NCBI GenBank assembly: GCA_035764005.1 | Contig: DASTZZ010000115.1 | Location: 1-64,000, forward strand | Reading direction: 5' to 3' | Source: Terriglobales bacterium | GTDB lineage: Bacteria; Acidobacteriota; Terriglobia; Terriglobales; Acidobacteriaceae | Length of the DNA: 64,000 bases | Shown: positions 30,414 to 40,264 of the stretch, in pieces | Position numbering within the stretch: the stretch's first letter is position 1 | How the letters are laid out: every line of letters starts with the position of its first letter | The notes under the pieces: generated by a model | Database searches by the model: none | Seen by the model: only the letters and a program-made list of their open reading frames with translations | Told to the model about the DNA's origin: nothing | Translations under genes and position numbers: made by a program

Positions 30414-31487
30414 CTACACAGCCACCTTGGCCTTCTGCTGCTCCGATAGCGGCGCCTTGGCCTGAGTTTCAGTTTGGTCCACGCTGACGGCTACAGGATT
30501 CACAAAGGGCATCATCGCGCGAAGGCGCTCACCAACCTGCTCGATCTGATGATTGTGATCTTTCTTGCGGGCCTCGTTGAACCACGGACGATTTTTCTCA
30601 TTCTCGGCGATCCACTGCCGCGCAAACTCACCGCTGCGAACGTCGGCGAGCAGCTTGCGTAGGGCCGCGTACGTTTCTTTTGTGACCACCTTCGGACCGG
30701 CCGTGTAGTCGCCATACTCGGCGGTGTCGCTAACGGAATAACGCATGAAGTTGAGCCCGCCGCGATACATGAGATCAACGATCAGTTTCAATTCGTGCAG
30801 GCACTCGAAATATGCGATCTCCGGCTGGTACCCGGCTTCAACGAGCGTTTCAAATCCGGCTTTGATGAGTGCGCTCACGCCCCCGCAGAGCACAGCCTGC
30901 TCTCCGAACAAGTCCGTTTCCGTCTCCTCCGCGAATGTCGTTTCGATCACTCCAGCACGGGTGCAGCCGATTCCTTTCGCGTAAGAAAGCGCGAACGCCT
31001 TCGCTTGTCCGCTCGAGTCCTGATGCACGGCAAGAAGTCCCGGCGTGCCTCCGCCTTCGACAAACACTTCGCGCACGCGATGGCCGGGAGATTTGGGTGC
31101 GATCATCACTACATCGACGTTTGGGGGCGGATTGATCGTTTTGAAATGGATGTTGAAACCATGTGCAAAGAGCAGCGTCTTGTGGCCACTTGAAAGAGCC
31201 GGGACGATCGCCTGGTTGTAGAGCTTGGCCTGAACTGTGTCAGGCGTAAGGATCACGAGCACGTCAGCCCATTTCGCGGCTTCTGCCGGAGTGAGCACTT
31301 CGAAGCCAGCCTCGCGAGCTTTGTTGCGCGAGCGACTGGTGGGCTCGAGCGCGATGCGCACTTCAACGCCGCTGTCGCGGAGGTTAAGAGCGTGAGCGTG
31401 TCCCTGCGAACCATAGCCGAAGACGGCTACTTTCTTGCCTCGGACCAGGGATATGTCTGCCGAATTCTCGTAGTAGATTTTCGCCAT
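30414..31487 (-). CDS. ilvC: Ketol-acid reductoisomerase (NADP+), class I
   Basis: A 357-residue class I enzyme for the second common step of valine, leucine and isoleucine synthesis. [20 protein letters not shown] is the Rossmann motif, and [12 protein letters not shown] is a loop with Arg/Ser residues suited to [31 protein letters not shown], the metal site [16 protein letters not shown] and [14 protein letters not shown] are present. GAGGA precedes the ATG. It is last in the operon, 12 bases after ilvN. Confidence 0.97.
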
Positions 31488-31499
31488 GTAAGTTCCTCT

Positions 31500-32069
31500 C
31501 TAAGAACAATTGCGCGGAAGGTCCGCGGAATGGGTTAGGTTCCAAAATGGTCCTCGCTGCTCTTCGCCGGCGGCGACAGCAGCGTGAAGCGCAGAAGCTT
31601 GGCTGGTCATAGCAACGCGTCCTGTGCGAGTGAGTTCAAGAATTTCAAATGGCCTGAGTGATTCGATCAGGTGGTTGATCGCGTCCTCTGGTCCCGTAGC
31701 TTCGGCGACCACAGAGTCGTTGGAAGTTTCCAAAACGCGAGCTCCGCCAGACGCAAGAACGCGCAAAACTTCAGATTGCGTTGCAGGATTGCTTGCGACC
31801 TTAACGATCATCAACTCGCGATGAACGGCAGGGACTTTGGTGATGTCGTCCACACGAATCACTTCTGCGAGCTTATAGAGATTCGCCATCACAAGCGGCG
31901 CGCCGATCTCGTCGATCGCGACCACGACTGTCATGCGCGAGATGCCGGGTTGATGCGTGTGACCCACGGTTAATGACTCAATGTTGTATCCGCGACGGCG
32001 GAACAGCGAGGAAACGCGATTCAACACGCCCGGATGATCGGCGACGTATACGATAAATGTGCGTACCAT
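31500..32069 (-). CDS. ilvN: Acetolactate synthase small (regulatory) subunit
   Basis: 189 residues with an N-terminal ACT domain (RTFIVYVADHPGVLNRVSSL, RRGYNIESLTVGHT), which should bind valine for feedback inhibition, and a C-terminal ALS-type domain (ELMIVKVASNPATQSEVL). The ATG at 32069 is chosen because GGAGG lies seven bases upstream inside the end of ilvB; another ATG at 32075 overlaps the ilvB stop but is too close to that site. The last 35 residues or so go beyond the usual family end and look unstructured. Confidence 0.93.
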   Translation of the reverse strand: MVRTFIVYVADHPGVLNRVSSLFRRRGYNIESLTVGHTHQPGISRMTVVVAIDEIGAPLVMANLYKLAEVIRVDDITKVPAVHRELMIVKVASNPATQSEVLRVLASGGARVLETSNDSVVAEATGPEDAINHLIESLRPFEILELTRTGRVAMTSQASALHAAVAAGEEQRGPFWNLTHSADLPRNCS

Positions 32070-32071
32070 GC

Positions 32072-33781
32072 TCATGCCTCCGATGCCGCCGTTTCCACGA
32101 GCGGACTTGGACGTCGAATCATTTCGTTGAGCGCTGCGCCGCTTGGCACCATCGGAAATACCGAGTCTTCTTGTTCGACCAGGAAATTGATCAAAGTCGT
32201 GCCACGATGATTCCGCGCTTCGCAAATCGCTGGAACGACCTGATCGCGGTTCTGCACTGTTAAGCCGCGTAGACCAAAAGCCTCGGCCAGTCTGGCGAAA
32301 TCCGGACTCAGGAGGGGTGTCTCGGAGTAGCGGCGGTTGTAAAAGAACTCCTGCCACTGCCGAACCATGCCAAGATATCCGTTGTTGATGACCGCTATAT
32401 TGACATCAAGTTCTTCCTGCGCAGCGGTGGCTAACTCTGGCATCGTCATCTGAAATCCGCCGTCGCCTGCGACGACCCAAACGTCGGCTTCAGGACGAGC
32501 GAACTTCGCGCCGATTGCTGCGGGTAAGGCAAAACCCATCGTGCCCAATCCGCCGGAAGTGATGAGCGATCGCGGCTGCTCATGTTTGTAATACTGCGCC
32601 TCCCACATCTGGTGCTGGCCAACATCGGTTACAACAATGGAATTTCCGTTGGTCTCGCGCCAGAGATCGTGGATCACGTGCGCGGCGTAGAGATGCCCAC
32701 TATCGGGCATCTTCTGAATGTCGCGCACGGCGGAATCGCCCTTGAGTTCGTCAATGTAGTGCAGCCACGCCTGGCGATCGATGCGTTGCACATCAGGCAG
32801 CAACTTTTGCAATGCCGGACGAAGATCCGAAACCAGTGCGACATCTACGCGAACGTTTTTATTAATCTCGGCCGGATCGATCTCGATGTGAAGCTTTTTC
32901 GCCTTTGGCGCATAAGTCTTCAACGTGCCGGTCACCCGATCGTCGAAGCGCATGCCGAAAGCCAGCAGCAAGTCGGCTTCCTGAATCGCGTGATTCACCC
33001 ACGCTTCGCCGTGCATGCCCATCATGCCGAGATTCAGAGGATGGGAGGCCGAAAAGCCGCCGATTCCGAGCAGCGTCATCGCGACCGGCATACTTGCTCG
33101 CTCAGCGAATTCGCGCAGTTCTTCCATTGCATTGGAGAGCAGGACGCCGTGACCGGCAAGAATGACTGGCCGTTTTGAGGAATTGATCAGATCGAGCGCA
33201 GCCGCGTACTGCTCAGGACCAGAATGGGACTTCCCTTCCGCGGACGGAAGCGGCTTATAGCTCGCCATGTCGAACTCGCACGAGCTTTGCTGCGCGTCCT
33301 TCGTAATATCAACGAGAACCGGACCAGGACGGCCGCTCCGCGCAACGTAAAACGCTTCGCGCAGCGTGGGCGCGATGTCTTCAGCGCGCTTAACCAGGTA
33401 GTTGTGCTTGGTAATCGGGAGTGTGATGCCGGTGATGTCGGTTTCTTGAAAAGCGTCGGTACCGAGGAACTTGCTGCCGACCTGCCCGGTAATACAAACG
33501 ATAGGAGAGGAATCCATCGCCGCCGTCGCGATACCGGTGACCATGTTGGTGGCGCCCGGACCTGAGGTCGCCATCGCTACGCCCACTCGTCCGCTGGCGC
33601 GTGCGTATCCGTCCGCCATGTGTGTCGCCCCTTGCTCGTGGCGCACCAGGACGTGATGGATCTGCGGATACTGGCACAACGCGTCGTACGCCGGAAGGAT
33701 TGCGCCGCCCGGGTATCCGAAGACGTGCTTTACGTCTTCGGCGATCAGGCATTCCCAAATGATCTGCGCACCGGTTCTCAT
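32072..33781 (-). CDS. ilvB: Acetolactate synthase large (catalytic) subunit
   Basis: A 569-residue ThDP enzyme that makes acetolactate or acetohydroxybutyrate from pyruvate. The catalytic Glu is in VRHEQGATHMADGYARASG, and FGYPGGAILPAYDAL marks the N terminus. The ThDP/Mg motif is VVAGDGGFQMTMPELATAAQ ending in VINNGYLGMVRQWQE. ATG 33781 has GGAG upstream; a longer reading into ilvD is rejected. It forms a heteromeric complex with the overlapping ilvN product. Confidence 0.96.
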   Translation of the reverse strand: MRTGAQIIWECLIAEDVKHVFGYPGGAILPAYDALCQYPQIHHVLVRHEQGATHMADGYARASGRVGVAMATSGPGATNMVTGIATAAMDSSPIVCITGQVGSKFLGTDAFQETDITGITLPITKHNYLVKRAEDIAPTLREAFYVARSGRPGPVLVDITKDAQQSSCEFDMASYKPLPSAEGKSHSGPEQYAAALDLINSSKRPVILAGHGVLLSNAMEELREFAERASMPVAMTLLGIGGFSASHPLNLGMMGMHGEAWVNHAIQEADLLLAFGMRFDDRVTGTLKTYAPKAKKLHIEIDPAEINKNVRVDVALVSDLRPALQKLLPDVQRIDRQAWLHYIDELKGDSAVRDIQKMPDSGHLYAAHVIHDLWRETNGNSIVVTDVGQHQMWEAQYYKHEQPRSLITSGGLGTMGFALPAAIGAKFARPEADVWVVAGDGGFQMTMPELATAAQEELDVNIAVINNGYLGMVRQWQEFFYNRRYSETPLLSPDFARLAEAFGLRGLTVQNRDQVVPAICEARNHRGTTLINFLVEQEDSVFPMVPSGAALNEMIRRPSPLVETAASEA

Positions 33782-33798
33782 TCGCTTTCTCCTTCCAT

Positions 33799-35469
33799 CT
33801 AGATCGTCACCGCTCCACGCGCAGCCGACGAGACTTGGTTGGCATACTTCGCCATGACCCCGGTTGGATATCGCGGCTGCGGAGGCTTCCACGACGCCAA
33901 CCGTTGTTTCATTTCGGAATCGGGAATCTCCACTCGCAACTCGCGTTTCGTAATGTCAAAGACGATCTGGTCGCCCTCGCGTACCGCGGCGATCGGTCCA
34001 CCCGCCATGGCTTCGGGCGCAACGTGGCCCGCCATGAGTCCATGCGTGGCCCCTGAAAACCGGCCGTCCGTGAGCAATGCAACAGATTCGCCAAGTCCGG
34101 CTCCAACGATTGCCGCCGTAACCGCCAGCATCTCCCGCATTCCTGGTCCGCCCTTCGGACCTTCATAGCGGATCACAACTACATCCCCTGCTTTGATCTT
34201 CCCGTTTTGAACCGCGGCGAAGGCTTGCTCTTCACCATCAAAAACGCGCGCCGGGCCGGCATGGCGCTGAAACTCGTGGCCCGCCACCTTTACTACGCAT
34301 CCTTCGGGGGCGAGATTGCCCTTCAAAATGACCAGACCGCCGGTCGGCTTGAGCGGCTGGGCTGTGGGCCGGACCACTTCCTGATCGGGAGTTTCCACGG
34401 CCCGCTTCGCCTCTTCACCGATCGTTTTGCCGGTGACAGTGAGAGCATCGGGCTTAAGAATGCCTGCCTCGAACAACCGCTGCGCCACCAGTGGAGTTCC
34501 TCCGGCTTCAAACAGATCGGTCGCGACAAACCTTCCGCCGGGCTTGAGATCCGCAATCAAAGGAACGTGCGAGCTGATGCGCTCGAAATCATCGATCGCG
34601 AATGGAACGCCGGCGGTATGCGCAATTGCGAGCAGATGCAGAACAGCATTCGTTGATCCACCGGTAGCGGCCACGCTGGCAACGGCATTCTCAAAAGCAG
34701 AGCGAGTGAGAATCTGCCTGGGCAAACGCTGCGCCTTGGCCAATTCCATAACGAGTTTTCCCGTCGCTTCGCCCTGCCGCAGCTTTCCTGGATGCGTCGC
34801 TGGAATTCCACCGCTTCCCATTTCGGCAATGCCGAGAAACTCGCATACCATCGCCATCGTGTTGGCCGTAAACTGTCCGCCGCAGGCCCCGGCTCCGGGA
34901 CAGGCATGATCTTCAATTTCCTTCAGATCAGAATCCGACATCTTGCCTCGGCTGTGAGCGCCGACTGCTTCAAAGACGTCCTGAATCGTGACATTGCGTC
35001 CGTGGAACTTCCCGGGCGCAATCGATCCGCCGTAGAGAATGACGGAAGGCAGATTTAGGCGAGCAACGGCCATGACTGCGCCAGGTATGGTCTTGTCGCA
35101 GCCGACCAGTACAACCAACCCATCGAAATGATTTCCGCGCGCGACTAACTCAACCGAATCAGCAATCACTTCTCGGCTGACAAGCGAGGTGCGCATGCCT
35201 TCCGCGCCCATGGTGATGCCGTCGGAAATGGAAACCGTATTGAACTCCATCGGAGTGCCGCCTGCCTGTCGCACACCCTGCTTCACTGCGGCGGCAAGCT
35301 CGCGAAGATGGAAGTTGCATGGACCGATTTCGGTCCACGTATTGGCAATGCCGATGATCGGTTTGCGCAGGTCTTCGTCGGTGAAGCCCACTGCTTTGAA
35401 CATCGCGCGCGCCGGCGAACGGCTTGGTCCATCTGTGATCGCGGCGCTATTCCGTTTTGGATCGCTCAT
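33799..35469 (-). CDS. ilvD: Dihydroxy-acid dehydratase
   Basis: A 556-residue Fe-S dehydratase for the third common branched-chain step. [38 protein letters not shown] and [20 protein letters not shown] supply the three cluster cysteines, and [20 protein letters not shown] is the C-terminal signature. It is the first structural gene of the operon, preceded by a leader peptide and attenuator. Its own ribosome binding site is weak (GGGAAGAG about 14 bases upstream). Confidence 0.97.
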
Positions 35470-35505
35470 CTGAACGCTCGGTCTCTTCCCTGCCCTGAAA
35501 TGCTT

Positions 35506-35567
35506 AAGGCCATCATCTGCTTCGATGATGGCCTTGAATCTTTTCTCCTGCCGCTGGCCATCATCCC
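35506..35567 (-). promoter_or_regulatory. ilv attenuator: overlapping terminator and antiterminator
   Basis: On the minus strand a segment GATGATGGCC (35565-35556) can pair with GGCCATCATC (35533-35524). The latter can instead pair with GATGATGGCC (35517-35508), extended to a perfect 12-bp stem AAGGCCATCATC with GATGATGGCCTT and a six-base loop. The two hairpins exclude each other. The stop codon of the leader peptide lies in the first segment, so a ribosome finishing the leader would block the antiterminator. The T run after the terminator is poor (AAGCATTT), which is the weak point. Confidence 0.7.
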
Positions 35568-35671
35568 GTGCCTACAACGCTAAGCACGACTGTAAGCAGG
35601 CAAATATCTACGACTGCGCCCGTGGCCGCAACAGCGCTTCTGCGCGAACTGAATTCTGGGGCTGCATTCAC
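35561..35671 (-). CDS. ilv operon leader peptide
   Basis: A 36-codon reading frame between the promoter and ilvD. It starts with GTG at 35671 after a strong AGGAGG and ends in TGA at 35563-35561. The encoded peptide ends [19 protein letters not shown]: seven valines, three leucines and one isoleucine within the last 17 residues, exactly the amino acids made by the operon. It fits a peptide whose slow translation senses branched-chain aminoacyl-tRNA. It has no other expected function. Confidence 0.75.
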
Positions 35672-35701
35672 CGGAAATCCCCTCCTGCTCCAATGCCGAA
35701 G

Positions 35702-35730
35702 ACTATAAATAGGGCTTATATAAATGTCAA
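35702..35730 (-). promoter_or_regulatory. Sigma-70-type promoter of the ilv operon
   Basis: On the minus strand TTGACA (35730-35725), a 17-base spacer and TATAGT (35707-35702) give a near-consensus promoter. Transcription would start near 35695, about 25 bases before the leader GTG. This is the best promoter match I found in the window. Confidence 0.8.
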
Positions 35731-35884: not shown

Positions 35885-38800
35885 ATGCAGCAAGGCTTGT
35901 ATGATCCCCGGTTTGAGCACGACTCCTGCGGCGTAGGCTTTGTCGCCCGCGTCTCCGGCACCCCCTCACGCGAGATCGTGGAGATGGGCTTGGAAGCCCT
36001 TGCACGGCTCGCGCATCGCGGTGCGGTCGCGGCCGATGGCCGCAGCGGAGATGGCGCCGGGATCACGACTTCGATTCCTCGGAGCTTACTTCAGCGTTCC
36101 CTAACCGACCCCGACCTGCAGATTCCATCCGATGTTCCCCTCGCAGTTGGAATGGTGTTCTTCGATTCTGACGAGCTGCCTGCCGCTGCCGATCAACTGC
36201 GCGTTGCCATTGAAGCCCAGGAGTTGAGGCTCCTCTGTTGGCGTGAAGTGCCGGTGAACCGAGAAGCGCTCGGACACACCGCGCTGGCCTCGATGCCTGT
36301 GATCCGCCAGGCTCTCATTGCTCCGCAGCCCAAAGTCAGTCAAAACGAGTTTGAGTCGCGTCTTCATCGCGCCCGTAAACAATTTGAACGCGCAGGACTG
36401 AAGAGCTACGTAGCTTCGCTCTCGTCGCGCACGATCGTTTATAAGGCGCTCTGCGCCGGCGGACATCTGCGCGAGTTTTACCCCGATCTGCAGAATCCCG
36501 AATTTGAAAGCTCATTTGTTCTCTTCCATCAGCGTTATGCGACGAACACGCATCCTTCCTGGTGGCTCGCGCAGCCGTTCCGATTCATCGCGCACAACGG
36601 CGAGATCAATACCATCGACGCCAACCGCACCTGGATGAAAGCGCGCGAGACCGAGCTTCCTCCTGACTTCCTGCCCCTGCTCCGTGAGGGCGCATCAGAT
36701 TCCTGTCATTTCGACGAAGCTGCCGAAGCGCTCCTTCGCAGCGGACGCGATCTGCTGCACAGCATGGCGATGCTGGTCGTTCCTGCGTGGCAGGCTCATC
36801 CAGCGTTTCAGGATCTGGCGTGCTTCTACCGCGAGCATGCCGCATTGATGGAGCCTTGGGATGGCCCTGCGGCTATGGCCTTCGCGGATGGTCGCTATGT
36901 CGGCGCTGCTCTCGATCGCAACGGCCTGCGTCCGATGCGCTACAAAATCACCAGCGACGGGCTCGTAATCGCCGGTTCCGAAGTGGGACTGTTCGATCTG
37001 GATGCCGACCACGTCGAAGTCAACGGCCGTCTCGGCCCGGGACAGATGCTCGCCGTCGATCTCGAACGCCACGAAGTGCTCGATGCCGAGCGCCTGAAAC
37101 AGCATCTGTTCCATGCAACTCCGGAGACAAGCTCGCACGTAATCGCCGTCGAGAAAGCTCCGGCGGGCACTTTTGAGACACCCACCGAGCAGACTCATGC
37201 GTTATTCGGCTACACGCGCGAAGATCTGAAGCTCGTAATTGCCCCCATGGCACGCGACGGGAAAGAAGCCGTGTGGTCGATGGGAGATGACACTCCCGTT
37301 TCGGCACTCGCTCGCGTCCCGCGCTCGCTCTACACGTTCTTCCGCCAGCGGTTTGCGCAGGTGACAAATCCCCCGATCGATCCGCTTCGCGAAGATCTGA
37401 TGATGTCGCTTCGCACCGTCCTGGGCCGCAGACCAAGACTCTGCGCAGATGATTCGAGCGCTCCCGCAACGCTTCTCGAACTAAGCTCTCCAGTCATTAG
37501 CGAAGAGGAACTCGAAGGTATTCGTTCGCAGTCTGTGCTGCAGATCGCGGAAATCGAGTGCGTCTGTCCGGATTCAGACGGCCTCGCAGCGAGCGTAGAA
37601 CAAATTTGTCGCCTGGCCGAATCAGCCGTAAAAAGCGGCGCCGAACTGCTGGTGTTGTCTGACACGACTGCAAGCTCGAGTGCGCCGCCGATTCCGATCG
37701 CGATGGTTGTCGGTGCCGTTCACCATCACCTGATCAACATCGGCCTGCGCACTCACTGCGACCTGATCGCGGAGTGCGGCGATTGTTGGGACGTTCATCA
37801 CGCAGCGGTGCTCATCGGCTACGGCGCGGGGGCGGTTTGCCCGTGGCTGGCGCTGCGCACCTGCGAGACTCCGCACAAAATGCTCGAGGGCTTCAACAAC
37901 GGTCTGAAGAAGATCATGTCGAAGCTCGGCATCTCCGACGTGGCCAGCTATCGGGGCGGCCAGTTCTTCCAGACCATCGGCTTCGACGAGGAACTCGTCA
38001 ACCGCTGTTTCGCCGGCACACCGAATCTTCGCGGCAAAGTAGGATTCGCGACTGTTGAGCAGGAACTCGCTCGTCGTGCTGAGCCGCTGGCGGCCGAGGC
38101 TAAAGAACTGCTCCAGGACTATGGCTACATCCGTTATCGCAAGGCCGATCGCGCCGACCAGCATGGATGGGCTCCGCCTGCAGTACGCGCAATGCAAACC
38201 GCAGTCGGCGTCGCTCGCAAAGCCGATGCTTCGCTGACTGAAAGTGCGTGGAGCGAATTCACCCGCCATGCCGACACGCTCAAGCCGCACAACCTCCGAG
38301 ATCTGCTTGAGTTTGCTCCCGTTTCGGAACGGGTTTCCCTCAATGAAGTCGAGCCTGCTGCCGAGATTGCCCGCCTCTTCGTGAGTAGCGCTATGTCGCT
38401 CGGCTCCATCAGCCCTGAAGCGCATCGCACGCTGTCAGAAGCCATGAATCTGCTCGGCGGCAAGTCGAATACCGGCGAAGGCGGTGAAGATCCCGATGTT
38501 TATCACGGACGCCGCGAAGCGAACAACAAGGTGAAGCAGGTTGCTTCCGGACGCTTTGGCGTCACGACCGAGTACCTGGTCAACGCGGAAGAGATCGAAA
38601 TCAAGATCGCGCAAGGCTCGAAACCGGGAGAAGGTGGACAGCTCCCGGCAGCCAAGGTGACCGAGCTGATTGCGCGTCTGCGCCACGCTCAAGTAGGAAT
38701 GTCGCTGATCAGCCCTCCCCCACATCACGACATCTACAGCATTGAGGACCTGGCGCAGCTTATTCACGACCTCAAGCAGGTCAATCCAACCGCTCGCGTA

Positions 38801-40264
38801 GGCGTGAAGCTGGTTTCCGAAGCGGGAATCGGAACGGTGGCTTCCGGCGTAGCGAAGGCCTATGCCGATTACGTGGTTGTCTCCGGACATGCCGGCGGCA
38901 CTGGAGCCTCGCCGCTGAGCAGCATTAAGCACGCCGGCGCCCCGTGGGAGCTTGGCCTTGCCGAAACCCAGCAGACGTTAATGCGCAATGGACTTCGGAG
39001 CCGTATTCGCGTGCGCGTTGACGGCGGCCTACGTACCGGACGCGACGTTGTAGTCGCTGCTCTGCTCGGCGCCGAACAGTTCGCTTTTGGAACTGCAGCG
39101 CTCGTCTCGCTGGGCTGCGACATGGCTCGTCAATGTCATCTCGATACGTGCCCGGCCGGAATCGCAACGCAGCGTCCCGAACTGCGCGCAAAGTTCCGCG
39201 GCAAGCCTGAGCACGTGGTTGCTTACTTCCTGAAAGTTGCAGAAGACATTCGCACGCTGCTGGGGCAACTAGGCTTGCGTTCAATCAGCGAAGCCGTAGG
39301 ACGCACCGATCTGCTTCGCCAAATCTCGACCGACGGCGCACTCGACCTCTCACAGCTGCTCTATCGCAGCGACGGCGACTTGCCACGCTGCATGACTCCG
39401 CGCAACGATCGTCCATCCGATCACGATGCTTTCGGACTGGAACTAGCGAATGAGATCGTAGGCTTCGTTCGCCAGGGACAGCACTTCGATCGCGAGTTCA
39501 CGATCCGTAACCAGGATCGCTCGACCGGCGCAAGCATTGCTGGAGAACTCGTCCGCAAGCTCGGCGTTCGTGGGCTGCAGAACAGCGAAGTTCGCCTCGG
39601 CTTCCGTGGCTCAGCGGGCCAGTCGTTCGGAGCGTTCTGCGTCGATGGCATGGAATTGACGCTGGACGGCGAAGCCAATGACTACGTCGGAAAAGGTCTC
39701 TGCGGCGGCGCGCTGATTCTGCGCCCGCGCGGCAAGGCGATCGATAGCTCGAACGAGAATGTCATTTTGGGAAATGTCGCGCTCTACGGCGCGACCTCCG
39801 GACGGCTCTTCGCCGCCGGACGCGCCGGCGAACGCTTCGCCGTACGCAACTCCGGAGCAGTAGCCGTAGTTGAAGGCGTTGGCGATCACGGCTGCGAATA
39901 CATGACCGGCGGATGCGTAGTTGTACTCGGCGATATCGGCTGCAACTTTGCCGCAGGAATGACCGGCGGCAAGGCTTACGTCTTCGATCCCGCAAACCTC
40001 ACCGAGACCCGCGTAAATCAGGATTCGGTCGAGCTGAGTGTTCCTTCGCCTGAACAGCTACACCAGGTGGAGATGCTAGTACGTGTCCACGCCCTGCTAA
40101 CCGGCAGCGTGTGGGCGCAGCAGCTTCTAGCGAGTTGGCAGGAATGCAGCCGCTTCTTCCGCTCCATAGCTCCGAAGCAGGCTGGCAAGCCTGTCTGGAA
40201 GACTCAGCCAGCGGCGGTACTGCCGGTTCCCGAAATTGCACCCCCCACATTCCCGCAGGCTTAA
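35885..40264 (+). CDS. gltB: Glutamate synthase, large subunit
   Basis: 1459 residues. A short propeptide-like start (MQQGLYDPRFEHDS) precedes the nucleophile Cys15 of SCGVGFVAR, heading the glutaminase domain (to about 420). A central domain and an FMN-binding synthase domain follow (GEGGEDPDVYHGRREANNKV, GGTGASPLSSIKHAG). The 3Fe-4S cysteines are in CDMARQCHLDTCPAGIATQR, and the C-terminal beta helix is rich in Gly. It makes two glutamates from glutamine and 2-oxoglutarate. No gltD lies downstream, so the electron-donor subunit must be elsewhere or replaced. Confidence 0.96.
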   Translation: MQQGLYDPRFEHDSCGVGFVARVSGTPSREIVEMGLEALARLAHRGAVAADGRSGDGAGITTSIPRSLLQRSLTDPDLQIPSDVPLAVGMVFFDSDELPAAADQLRVAIEAQELRLLCWREVPVNREALGHTALASMPVIRQALIAPQPKVSQNEFESRLHRARKQFERAGLKSYVASLSSRTIVYKALCAGGHLREFYPDLQNPEFESSFVLFHQRYATNTHPSWWLAQPFRFIAHNGEINTIDANRTWMKARETELPPDFLPLLREGASDSCHFDEAAEALLRSGRDLLHSMAMLVVPAWQAHPAFQDLACFYREHAALMEPWDGPAAMAFADGRYVGAALDRNGLRPMRYKITSDGLVIAGSEVGLFDLDADHVEVNGRLGPGQMLAVDLERHEVLDAERLKQHLFHATPETSSHVIAVEKAPAGTFETPTEQTHALFGYTREDLKLVIAPMARDGKEAVWSMGDDTPVSALARVPRSLYTFFRQRFAQVTNPPIDPLREDLMMSLRTVLGRRPRLCADDSSAPATLLELSSPVISEEELEGIRSQSVLQIAEIECVCPDSDGLAASVEQICRLAESAVKSGAELLVLSDTTASSSAPPIPIAMVVGAVHHHLINIGLRTHCDLIAECGDCWDVHHAAVLIGYGAGAVCPWLALRTCETPHKMLEGFNNGLKKIMSKLGISDVASYRGGQFFQTIGFDEELVNRCFAGTPNLRGKVGFATVEQELARRAEPLAAEAKELLQDYGYIRYRKADRADQHGWAPPAVRAMQTAVGVARKADASLTESAWSEFTRHADTLKPHNLRDLLEFAPVSERVSLNEVEPAAEIARLFVSSAMSLGSISPEAHRTLSEAMNLLGGKSNTGEGGEDPDVYHGRREANNKVKQVASGRFGVTTEYLVNAEEIEIKIAQGSKPGEGGQLPAAKVTELIARLRHAQVGMSLISPPPHHDIYSIEDLAQLIHDLKQVNPTARVGVKLVSEAGIGTVASGVAKAYADYVVVSGHAGGTGASPLSSIKHAGAPWELGLAETQQTLMRNGLRSRIRVRVDGGLRTGRDVVVAALLGAEQFAFGTAALVSLGCDMARQCHLDTCPAGIATQRPELRAKFRGKPEHVVAYFLKVAEDIRTLLGQLGLRSISEAVGRTDLLRQISTDGALDLSQLLYRSDGDLPRCMTPRNDRPSDHDAFGLELANEIVGFVRQGQHFDREFTIRNQDRSTGASIAGELVRKLGVRGLQNSEVRLGFRGSAGQSFGAFCVDGMELTLDGEANDYVGKGLCGGALILRPRGKAIDSSNENVILGNVALYGATSGRLFAAGRAGERFAVRNSGAVAVVEGVGDHGCEYMTGGCVVVLGDIGCNFAAGMTGGKAYVFDPANLTETRVNQDSVELSVPSPEQLHQVEMLVRVHALLTGSVWAQQLLASWQECSRFFRSIAPKQAGKPVWKTQPAAVLPVPEIAPPTFPQA

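Follow-up and report, generated by a model that had tools for sequence, protein, structure and literature searches.

The ilvD-ilvB-ilvN-ilvC operon and its leader

The minus strand of the window, meaning the whole 64,000-nt stretch of DNA that was analysed, carries four genes that NCBIfam names above the model cut-offs: ilvD, encoding dihydroxy-acid dehydratase (33799..35469, TIGR00110), ilvB and ilvN, encoding the large (32072..33892, TIGR00118) and small (31500..32357, TIGR00119) subunits of acetolactate synthase, and ilvC, encoding ketol-acid reductoisomerase (30414..31487, TIGR00465). The coordinates of ilvB and ilvN are those of the longest ORFs; the true start of ilvB probably lies further inside, and the match of ilvN begins at residue 97. 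A glutamate synthase gene, gltB (35885-40264), is divergent from ilvD.

Ahead of ilvD, a promoter (35702..35730, minus strand) is composed of TTGACA (35730-35725), a 17-nt spacer and TATAGT (35707-35702), with 11 of 12 consensus matches, where shuffled sequences average 0.4 sites. It is followed on the same strand by a ribosome site and start (35669..35686; AGGAGG at 35686-35681, a 9-nt spacer and GTG at 35671-35669), which open a leader ORF (35561..35671) of 36 codons with a V/L/I-rich end and a TGA at 35563-35561. The TGA lies inside arm A, GATGATGGCC (35556..35565, minus strand), the 5' arm of an antiterminator of 10 bp formed with arm B, AAGGCCATCATC (35524..35535, minus strand). Arm B is common to the antiterminator and to a terminator, in which it pairs over 12 bp and without mismatch with the 3' arm, arm C, GATGATGGCCTT (35506..35517, minus strand). 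In short form, arms A/B/C on the minus strand of 35730-35506 read GATGATGGCC / GGCCATCATC / GATGATGGCC. The post-terminator tail (35494..35505, minus strand) is poor in T. Folding also gave a hairpin, possibly a pause site, within the final codons of the leader and adjoining arm A (35566..35589, minus strand); the 78 members examined of the family described below show a weak overall tendency towards a hairpin at this place (mean z -1.05). Every part of the original prediction, from the promoter, AGGAGG, GTG and 36-codon V/L/I leader to the stop within a pairing segment, the two hairpins sharing arm B and the position in front of the four ilv genes, was found on the minus strand.

Conservation in sister genomes and distant ilvD loci

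An ilvD match (E 1e-180 or better) was obtained in four of the five other genomes of the genus. All four of these sisters have the promoter, a Val/Leu/Ile-rich leader, the three arms and a TGA in arm A (GGATGATGGCC). The original prediction would have been refuted by relatives in which the leader frame or the paired segments are missing; this was looked for and did not materialise. The sister promoters, compared by eye, read TTGAC(A/T)-N17-TATAGT in each case, and their leader ribosome sites are, again by eye, weaker than the AGGAGG of the window. The V/L/I-rich frame ends at the same place in the four sisters, with the last 17 codons encoding VVRISVLTPVLLREATG, VVRISLLTPVLLREAMG, VVRISLLTLLLLLMATG and SIRISLLTSIRLFVLSG. 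No third-position excess was observed among leader substitutions in the genus (49, 52 and 61 by codon position), and because the substitutions are spread over the codon positions, the leader is conserved in its Val/Leu/Ile richness only and not as a peptide.

The same layout precedes ilvD in records that carry the labels gp1, gp2, gp6, Terriglobia and Vicinamibacterales. A loose first criterion flagged 61 of 112 upstream regions, mostly by chance; the core model introduced below matched 14 of 80 named ilvD loci, at one of which (L050) the match is in front of pheA, itself located upstream of ilvD. The core model gave no match near ilvD in Terriglobales with cultured members (L090, L092, L094, L097, L107 and L108), among them Terriglobus, Granulicella, Edaphobacter and Silvibacterium. 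At L012, ilvD lies by eye behind a leuD-like gene, so a switch, if any, would sit elsewhere. V/L/I-rich leaders with a terminator, of other arm sequence, were also seen before ilvD in an Opitutia record (L096, leader about 230-125 nt upstream of ilvD) and in Geothrix, a cultured genus (L056, L057, L059 and L069); these are putative ilv attenuators outside the core family.

For comparison of the arms, 19 ilvD sites were picked by eye from 21 candidates (alignment A1), with L009 and L019 dropped as diverged; L033 and L034, on the same contigs as L004 and L007, are not in it. Because the rows of this alignment and of the later A2 were hand-picked, the pair counts that follow lean towards structure. 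The terminator helix of A1 was 95.1% paired, with five pairs showing double changes over the 19 rows, a pairing and covariation score reached by none of 500 shuffles. The 11 pairs of the antiterminator were 83.7% paired (2 of 500 shuffles as good) and included one doubly changed pair (116 of 500 shuffles as many). A T-to-C change in arm A is matched in both B and C in two rows, and the antiterminator core GGATGATG:CATCATCC is kept in nearly all.

A family of three-arm leaders in Acidobacteriota

Two covariance models were used, R1 built from the ilvD sites alone (A1) and R2, built later, comprising the core only (alignment A2). The window is in both training sets, and its own scores (2.9e-19 and 2.9e-8, respectively) are circular. 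Among 396 Acidobacteriota genomes, R1 matched 69 at E 0.01 or better and gave 72 full-length matches besides the window at E up to 1e-4, while R2 at E 0.01 matched 81 genomes, partial and palindromic matches counted; about four fifths of the sampled genomes of the phylum gave no R2 match. The family signature is a leader stop in arm A GGATGATG, arm B GGCCATCATCC, arm C GGATGATGGCC and cognate leader codons, all of which are present in the window.

Genes behind the switch were classed by comparison with 17 reference proteins, the first to match being taken, so that an unlisted gene could intervene. The main classes were named with NCBIfam and Pfam, the remaining ones by eye. On this basis, an amino-acid biosynthesis gene was the first recognised behind 58 of the 72 R1 matches, and it was often not an ilv gene: thrA/hom (12), ilvB (11), ilvN (10), ilvD (7), cimA (7), pheA (5), cysM (3), ilvA (2) and a cysG-like gene (1). 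Behind the other 14 stood a small unknown protein (4), a LysR regulator (3), gltB (2), a cupin (2), a transporter (1) or no recognised gene (2); one of the last two (L154) is at a contig end and has a clear Val/Ile leader. Leaders before thrA include TTIVITTTTCGVPRG and PTMTRTTTITTGDSSGG, one before cimA reads LTLAIIIRSIILPGSGSG, and those before cysM and the cysG-like gene read RILTCTCPRRCVACCCRQDFVCG and ICPICSCCCTTMMPGTSG. The pheA members found with R1 have Val-rich leaders, which may be explained by an ORF of the ilvB cluster that seems to follow pheA in L122 and L137. From the new R2 places in the phylum a subset of 18 was fetched, of which five look like members (L252, L253, L254, L255 and L257) and 13 do not. 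The five precede cimA (two) and ilvB (one), as judged by eye, and lysC and pheA (one each), as named by NCBIfam; the lysC member has the leader STITTTTITGAHGG, and the pheA member has the Phe/Tyr-rich leader SFNNFSFYFYFSG, the sole such case before pheA.

Several genomes hold more than one copy, namely ilvD, ilvA and lysC members in G178, ilvD, cysG-like and hom members in G307, ilvD and hom members in both G261 and G135, and ilvB and cimA members in G441. In the window's own genome, apart from the window site and its palindrome on the plus strand, R1 gave only weak matches (best E 0.37); six of these weak places were read, leaving out the weaker C63, and by eye none had a cognate leader, which leaves the window site as the one member seen in this genome.

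Some targets deserve separate mention. The cysM-like gene behind Cys-rich leaders has split frames in L186 (G182) and is matched only 1.1 kb downstream in L179 (G420). The gltB members (L120 and L183) have Thr/Ile-rich leaders, gltB being the gene divergent from ilvD in the window. Non-biosynthetic genes, cupin-like in L184 and L189 and LysR in L118, L125 and L136, lie behind Leu- or Val-rich leaders, which suggests that the switch is used more widely. A small, conserved protein (73-90 residues) with an end like YVDVFDSGFGHDSGYGHGI is encoded immediately after a Leu/Ile-rich member, its gene facing one that resembles ilvC, as judged by eye (L119:1722-1991 (+), L124:1248-1466 (-), L128:1691-1954 (+) and L171:2666-2932 (-)). 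Pfam gave no match for two of these proteins and NCBIfam none for two; the small protein is possibly under branched-chain control.

Alignment A2 has 54 rows, 48 hand-picked from 89 oriented matched loci, minus three, plus nine ilvD loci; L170, L174 and L177 were dropped for want of a recognisable arm A. Its terminator was 95.7% paired, with eight doubly changed pairs (4 of 500 shuffles) across gene classes and 47 double-change cells vs 14.5 in shuffles. Of the cells in the 10 antiterminator pairs, 86.7% were paired (0 of 500 shuffles), with 28 double-change cells vs 11.5 in shuffles (0 of 500); the number of doubly changed pairs, four, was no better than in shuffles (412 of 500). The covarying stems that the original prediction had proposed to look for in related Acidobacteriota were therefore borne out for the terminator helix, the signal in the antiterminator being weaker and modest.

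Leader codons match the gene behind

The correspondence between leader codons and gene class was assessed on 53 leaders, 37 branched-chain (cimA included), 12 Thr and 4 Cys, with residues counted in the last 20 codons of the best frame for real and permuted labels alike; the pheA, gltB, LysR, cupin, transporter and small-protein classes, together with L175, which has no leader, were left out. The mean number of I/L/V residues was 8.73 in branched-chain leaders vs 4.08 (Thr) and 5.75 (Cys), that of T was 5.00 in Thr leaders vs 1.59 and 1.75 in the other two classes, and that of C was 6.50 in Cys leaders vs 0.43 and 1.17. None of 20,000 label permutations fitted as well, and the same held after collapsing by genus and class (26 rows, 0 of 20,000 permutations).

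Matches outside Acidobacteriota

Other phyla, named by record titles, were searched with R2. The Opitutia record gave seven matches (6 of 194 genomes, E 0.001), all of them lacking a cognate leader, and the Nitrospira record matched in 3 of 198 genomes with nothing attenuator-like. Matches were obtained in 7 of 297 genomes of the 'Proteobacteria' record at 1e-4, one with a Phe/Tyr leader, and in 2 of 95 genomes of the Methylomirabilota record, both with Phe leaders. Attenuator-like matches in these four records thus number three, all with Phe-rich leaders. L273, L279 and L280 have leaders, FFYFYFFSG and FSFSFYF among them, that run into a similar three-arm layout, and the ORF behind L280 resembles, by eye, DAHP synthase; the three are possible Phe attenuators. 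Since the attenuator-like matches in these records are all Phe-rich, Phe leaders of such a layout may be older than the Acidobacteriota family or independent of it. Among twelve named genomes, five had a match at E 0.1, a strong one being found only in the 'Woeseiaceae' MAG of L041, which holds two members, before ilvD and hom.

Proposed mechanism

The window site is very probably a ribosome-mediated transcription attenuator of ilvD-ilvB-ilvN-ilvC and belongs to a three-arm family of Acidobacteriota with gene-matched leader codons. We infer both ribosome stalling and termination from this arrangement. With charged Val, Leu and Ile tRNAs plentiful, the ribosome would get to the TGA and cover arm A, B would pair with C, and transcription would stop before ilvD. 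With Val, Leu or Ile short, the ribosome would stall upstream on those codons, and arm A, left free, would pair with B before C is made, so that no terminator would form and the operon would be read. Throughout the family, the leader stop predicted for this role lies in or just behind arm A, and the codons presumed to be sensed are those of Val/Leu/Ile before ilv genes, Ile before cimA, Thr before thrA/hom/lysC, Cys before cysM/cysG and, in one case, Phe/Tyr before pheA.

Stepwise folding with the ribosome masked, for which a footprint of 12 nt was assumed, is consistent with this course of events. With the ribosome at the Val codon at 35578, A:B forms before C exists (-15.4 kcal/mol), and with the ribosome at the last Val codon (35575) 7 bp of A:B are left (-11.5). 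With the ribosome on the TGA (35563), A:B cannot form (0.0) and the terminator then forms (-21.4). In these calculations, the position of the stop thus lets a ribosome that completes the leader block the antiterminator, but not one that has stalled. After synthesis of all three arms, the terminator was the stabler structure at every ribosome position tried; because the completed RNA favours it throughout, antitermination must be kinetic. In 52 of 58 members, read in the frame with most cognate residues, the last cognate codon lies at least three codons before the stop.

Alternative explanations and origin of the family

A hydrophobic ORF could have come to lie beside an ordinary bidirectional terminator by chance; read on the plus strand, the window hairpin is followed by a T-rich tail, and the models also match plain terminators, for example in Verrucomicrobiota-labelled genomes and at the 13 non-member places among the 18 fetched in the phylum. 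Against this stands a strict parts test that combined a perfect stem (length 10 or more, short loop), an 8-mer further upstream able to pair with the 5' arm of the stem and an ORF stop within that 8-mer: the window site was its sole match in 64 kb on both strands, and none of 3000 dinucleotide shuffles of 360 nt matched, in keeping with the original judgement that the full set would hardly arise by chance. The layout is moreover kept in sister genomes and distant relatives, and the leader codons fit the gene class. A chance combination is scarcely credible; in our view, the comparative data refute it.

The attenuator reading is least comfortable at its tail, as the original prediction had already conceded in calling the poor T run doubtful. 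With counting begun at the last bases of the stem, the tail of the window site shows 5 T in 12 nt; counts of 5 or fewer occur in 4 of 54 family members, the window included, with a median of 8 of 12, and a terminator scan calls the window hairpin on the plus strand only. The plus-strand tail of the hairpin (window 35504-35547 +), ATCTTTTCTC, is better in T than the minus-strand tail, so the hairpin may also stop antisense transcription. The poor U-tract and the missing minus-strand call would suit a leader that senses Val/Leu/Ile and terminates here through Rho or another factor, or a switch that has partly decayed. We consider this unlikely in view of the perfect 12-bp stem, the folding of the 111-nt segment, which was better than in 200 of 200 shuffles (z -4.18; the 231-nt leader overall was less striking, with z -1.77, equalled by 13 of 200 shuffles), and a GTTTT run that two sister genomes, L004 and L005, retain at this position. 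Control of ilvD translation instead of transcription, for example by masking of the ribosome site, could be imagined from the position of the stem about 36 nt upstream of the annotated ilvD ATG at 35469. However, the sequence just before ilvD is absent from both arms, the tails of most family members are T-rich (the median given above), and the gap between hairpin and gene differs greatly among loci, e.g. from 14 to 262 nt, all of which makes translational control highly improbable beside transcription attenuation.

We infer common descent of the family members, and incline to the view that one ancestral ribosome-read core was copied between operons and retargeted by leader-codon exchange to at least five signals (Val/Leu/Ile, Ile, Thr, Cys and Phe/Tyr), with two or three differently coded copies in several genomes and a Leu/Ile-rich version before the uncharacterised small protein gene. 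Members for different amino acids might alternatively have arisen independently, the shared GGATGATG core reflecting the constraint of a TGA in a three-way pairing arm. This is the less probable account, though one with evidence of its own: leaders of different classes are not alignable, Phe leaders arranged in much the same way are present in other phyla (L273, L279 and L280), and different-class members of one genome are no more alike in the core (identity 0.732, 15 pairs) than the rest. Yet a model trained on nothing but ilvD sites recovers members of the Thr, Cys and Ile classes, and core identity between taxonomic families is alike within a class (0.718, 162 pairs) and between classes (0.713, 743 pairs), so that there is no class signal at that distance. 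Inside a family, identity is 0.827 within a class (28 pairs) and 0.749 between classes (57 pairs), the latter value being reached in 34 of 1000 permutations. Copying and codon exchange within lineages thus appear to fit these values somewhat better than independent origin.

Relation to known attenuators

Rfam 15, with its Leu, Thr, Trp and His leaders, the Leu/phe leader, the T-box and the ppGpp riboswitch, gave no match at curated thresholds in the window or in 18 family loci; permissive scans gave one weak, irrelevant match in the window stretch and none in four loci. Among the literature matches listed, no title or abstract described a leader-peptide attenuator of Acidobacteriota.

Classical attenuators of Proteobacteria govern the trp, his, thr, leu and ilv operons, and are reportedly reviewed by Vitreschak (2004). 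The putative Acidobacteriota switch resembles them in its product-rich leader, in a stop near a pairing arm, in mutually exclusive antiterminator and terminator, and in the kinetic nature of antitermination. To our knowledge, each classical operon has its own unrelated RNA, whereas here one core would serve several amino acids. T-box riboswitches are likewise one architecture retargeted among amino acids by codon change, and they bind uncharged tRNA directly; the Acidobacteriota leader, in contrast, would be read by a translating ribosome, and the Rfam scans gave no T-box match. Judged by its name, RF01743 is presumably one leader RNA for two amino acids and a possible precedent for codon exchange. 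Unlike that RNA, of one species and two amino acids, the present family is found in many Acidobacteriota, and it gave no Rfam match. RF01743 is listed as the Leu/phe leader of Lactococcus lactis (PMC2864571).

Closer in content are attenuator candidates before ilvB of Actinobacteria, with a V/L/I-rich upstream ORF and a terminator (PMC1262725), and the ilvB-OMG motif, reported from various phyla and as rich in branched-chain and Thr codons (PMC10272879). With these the Acidobacteriota leaders share a V/L/I-rich ORF and, ahead of the ilv genes, a terminator. Both motifs concerned, ilvB-II and ilvB-OMG, are described for ilvB alone (PMC10272879), which by description sets them apart from the present family. 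The trp attenuators of Actinobacteria have conserved complementary triples, gGCC-rGCy-GGCC (PMC1262725); both systems keep three exclusively pairing arms over large distances, the triple serving one amino acid there, unlike in Acidobacteriota, where the same triple is kept across several. The mechanism is of a known kind; what may be new, in our view, is that a phylum uses one core with its leader codons exchanged.

The putative function of the family comes from comparing sequences only. If true, one core whose codons can be exchanged would be a ribosome-based counterpart of T-box modularity and a new RNA family for annotation, and it would allow amino-acid control, together with the likely role of unknown genes behind the switch, to be read from the genomes of uncultured soil bacteria.
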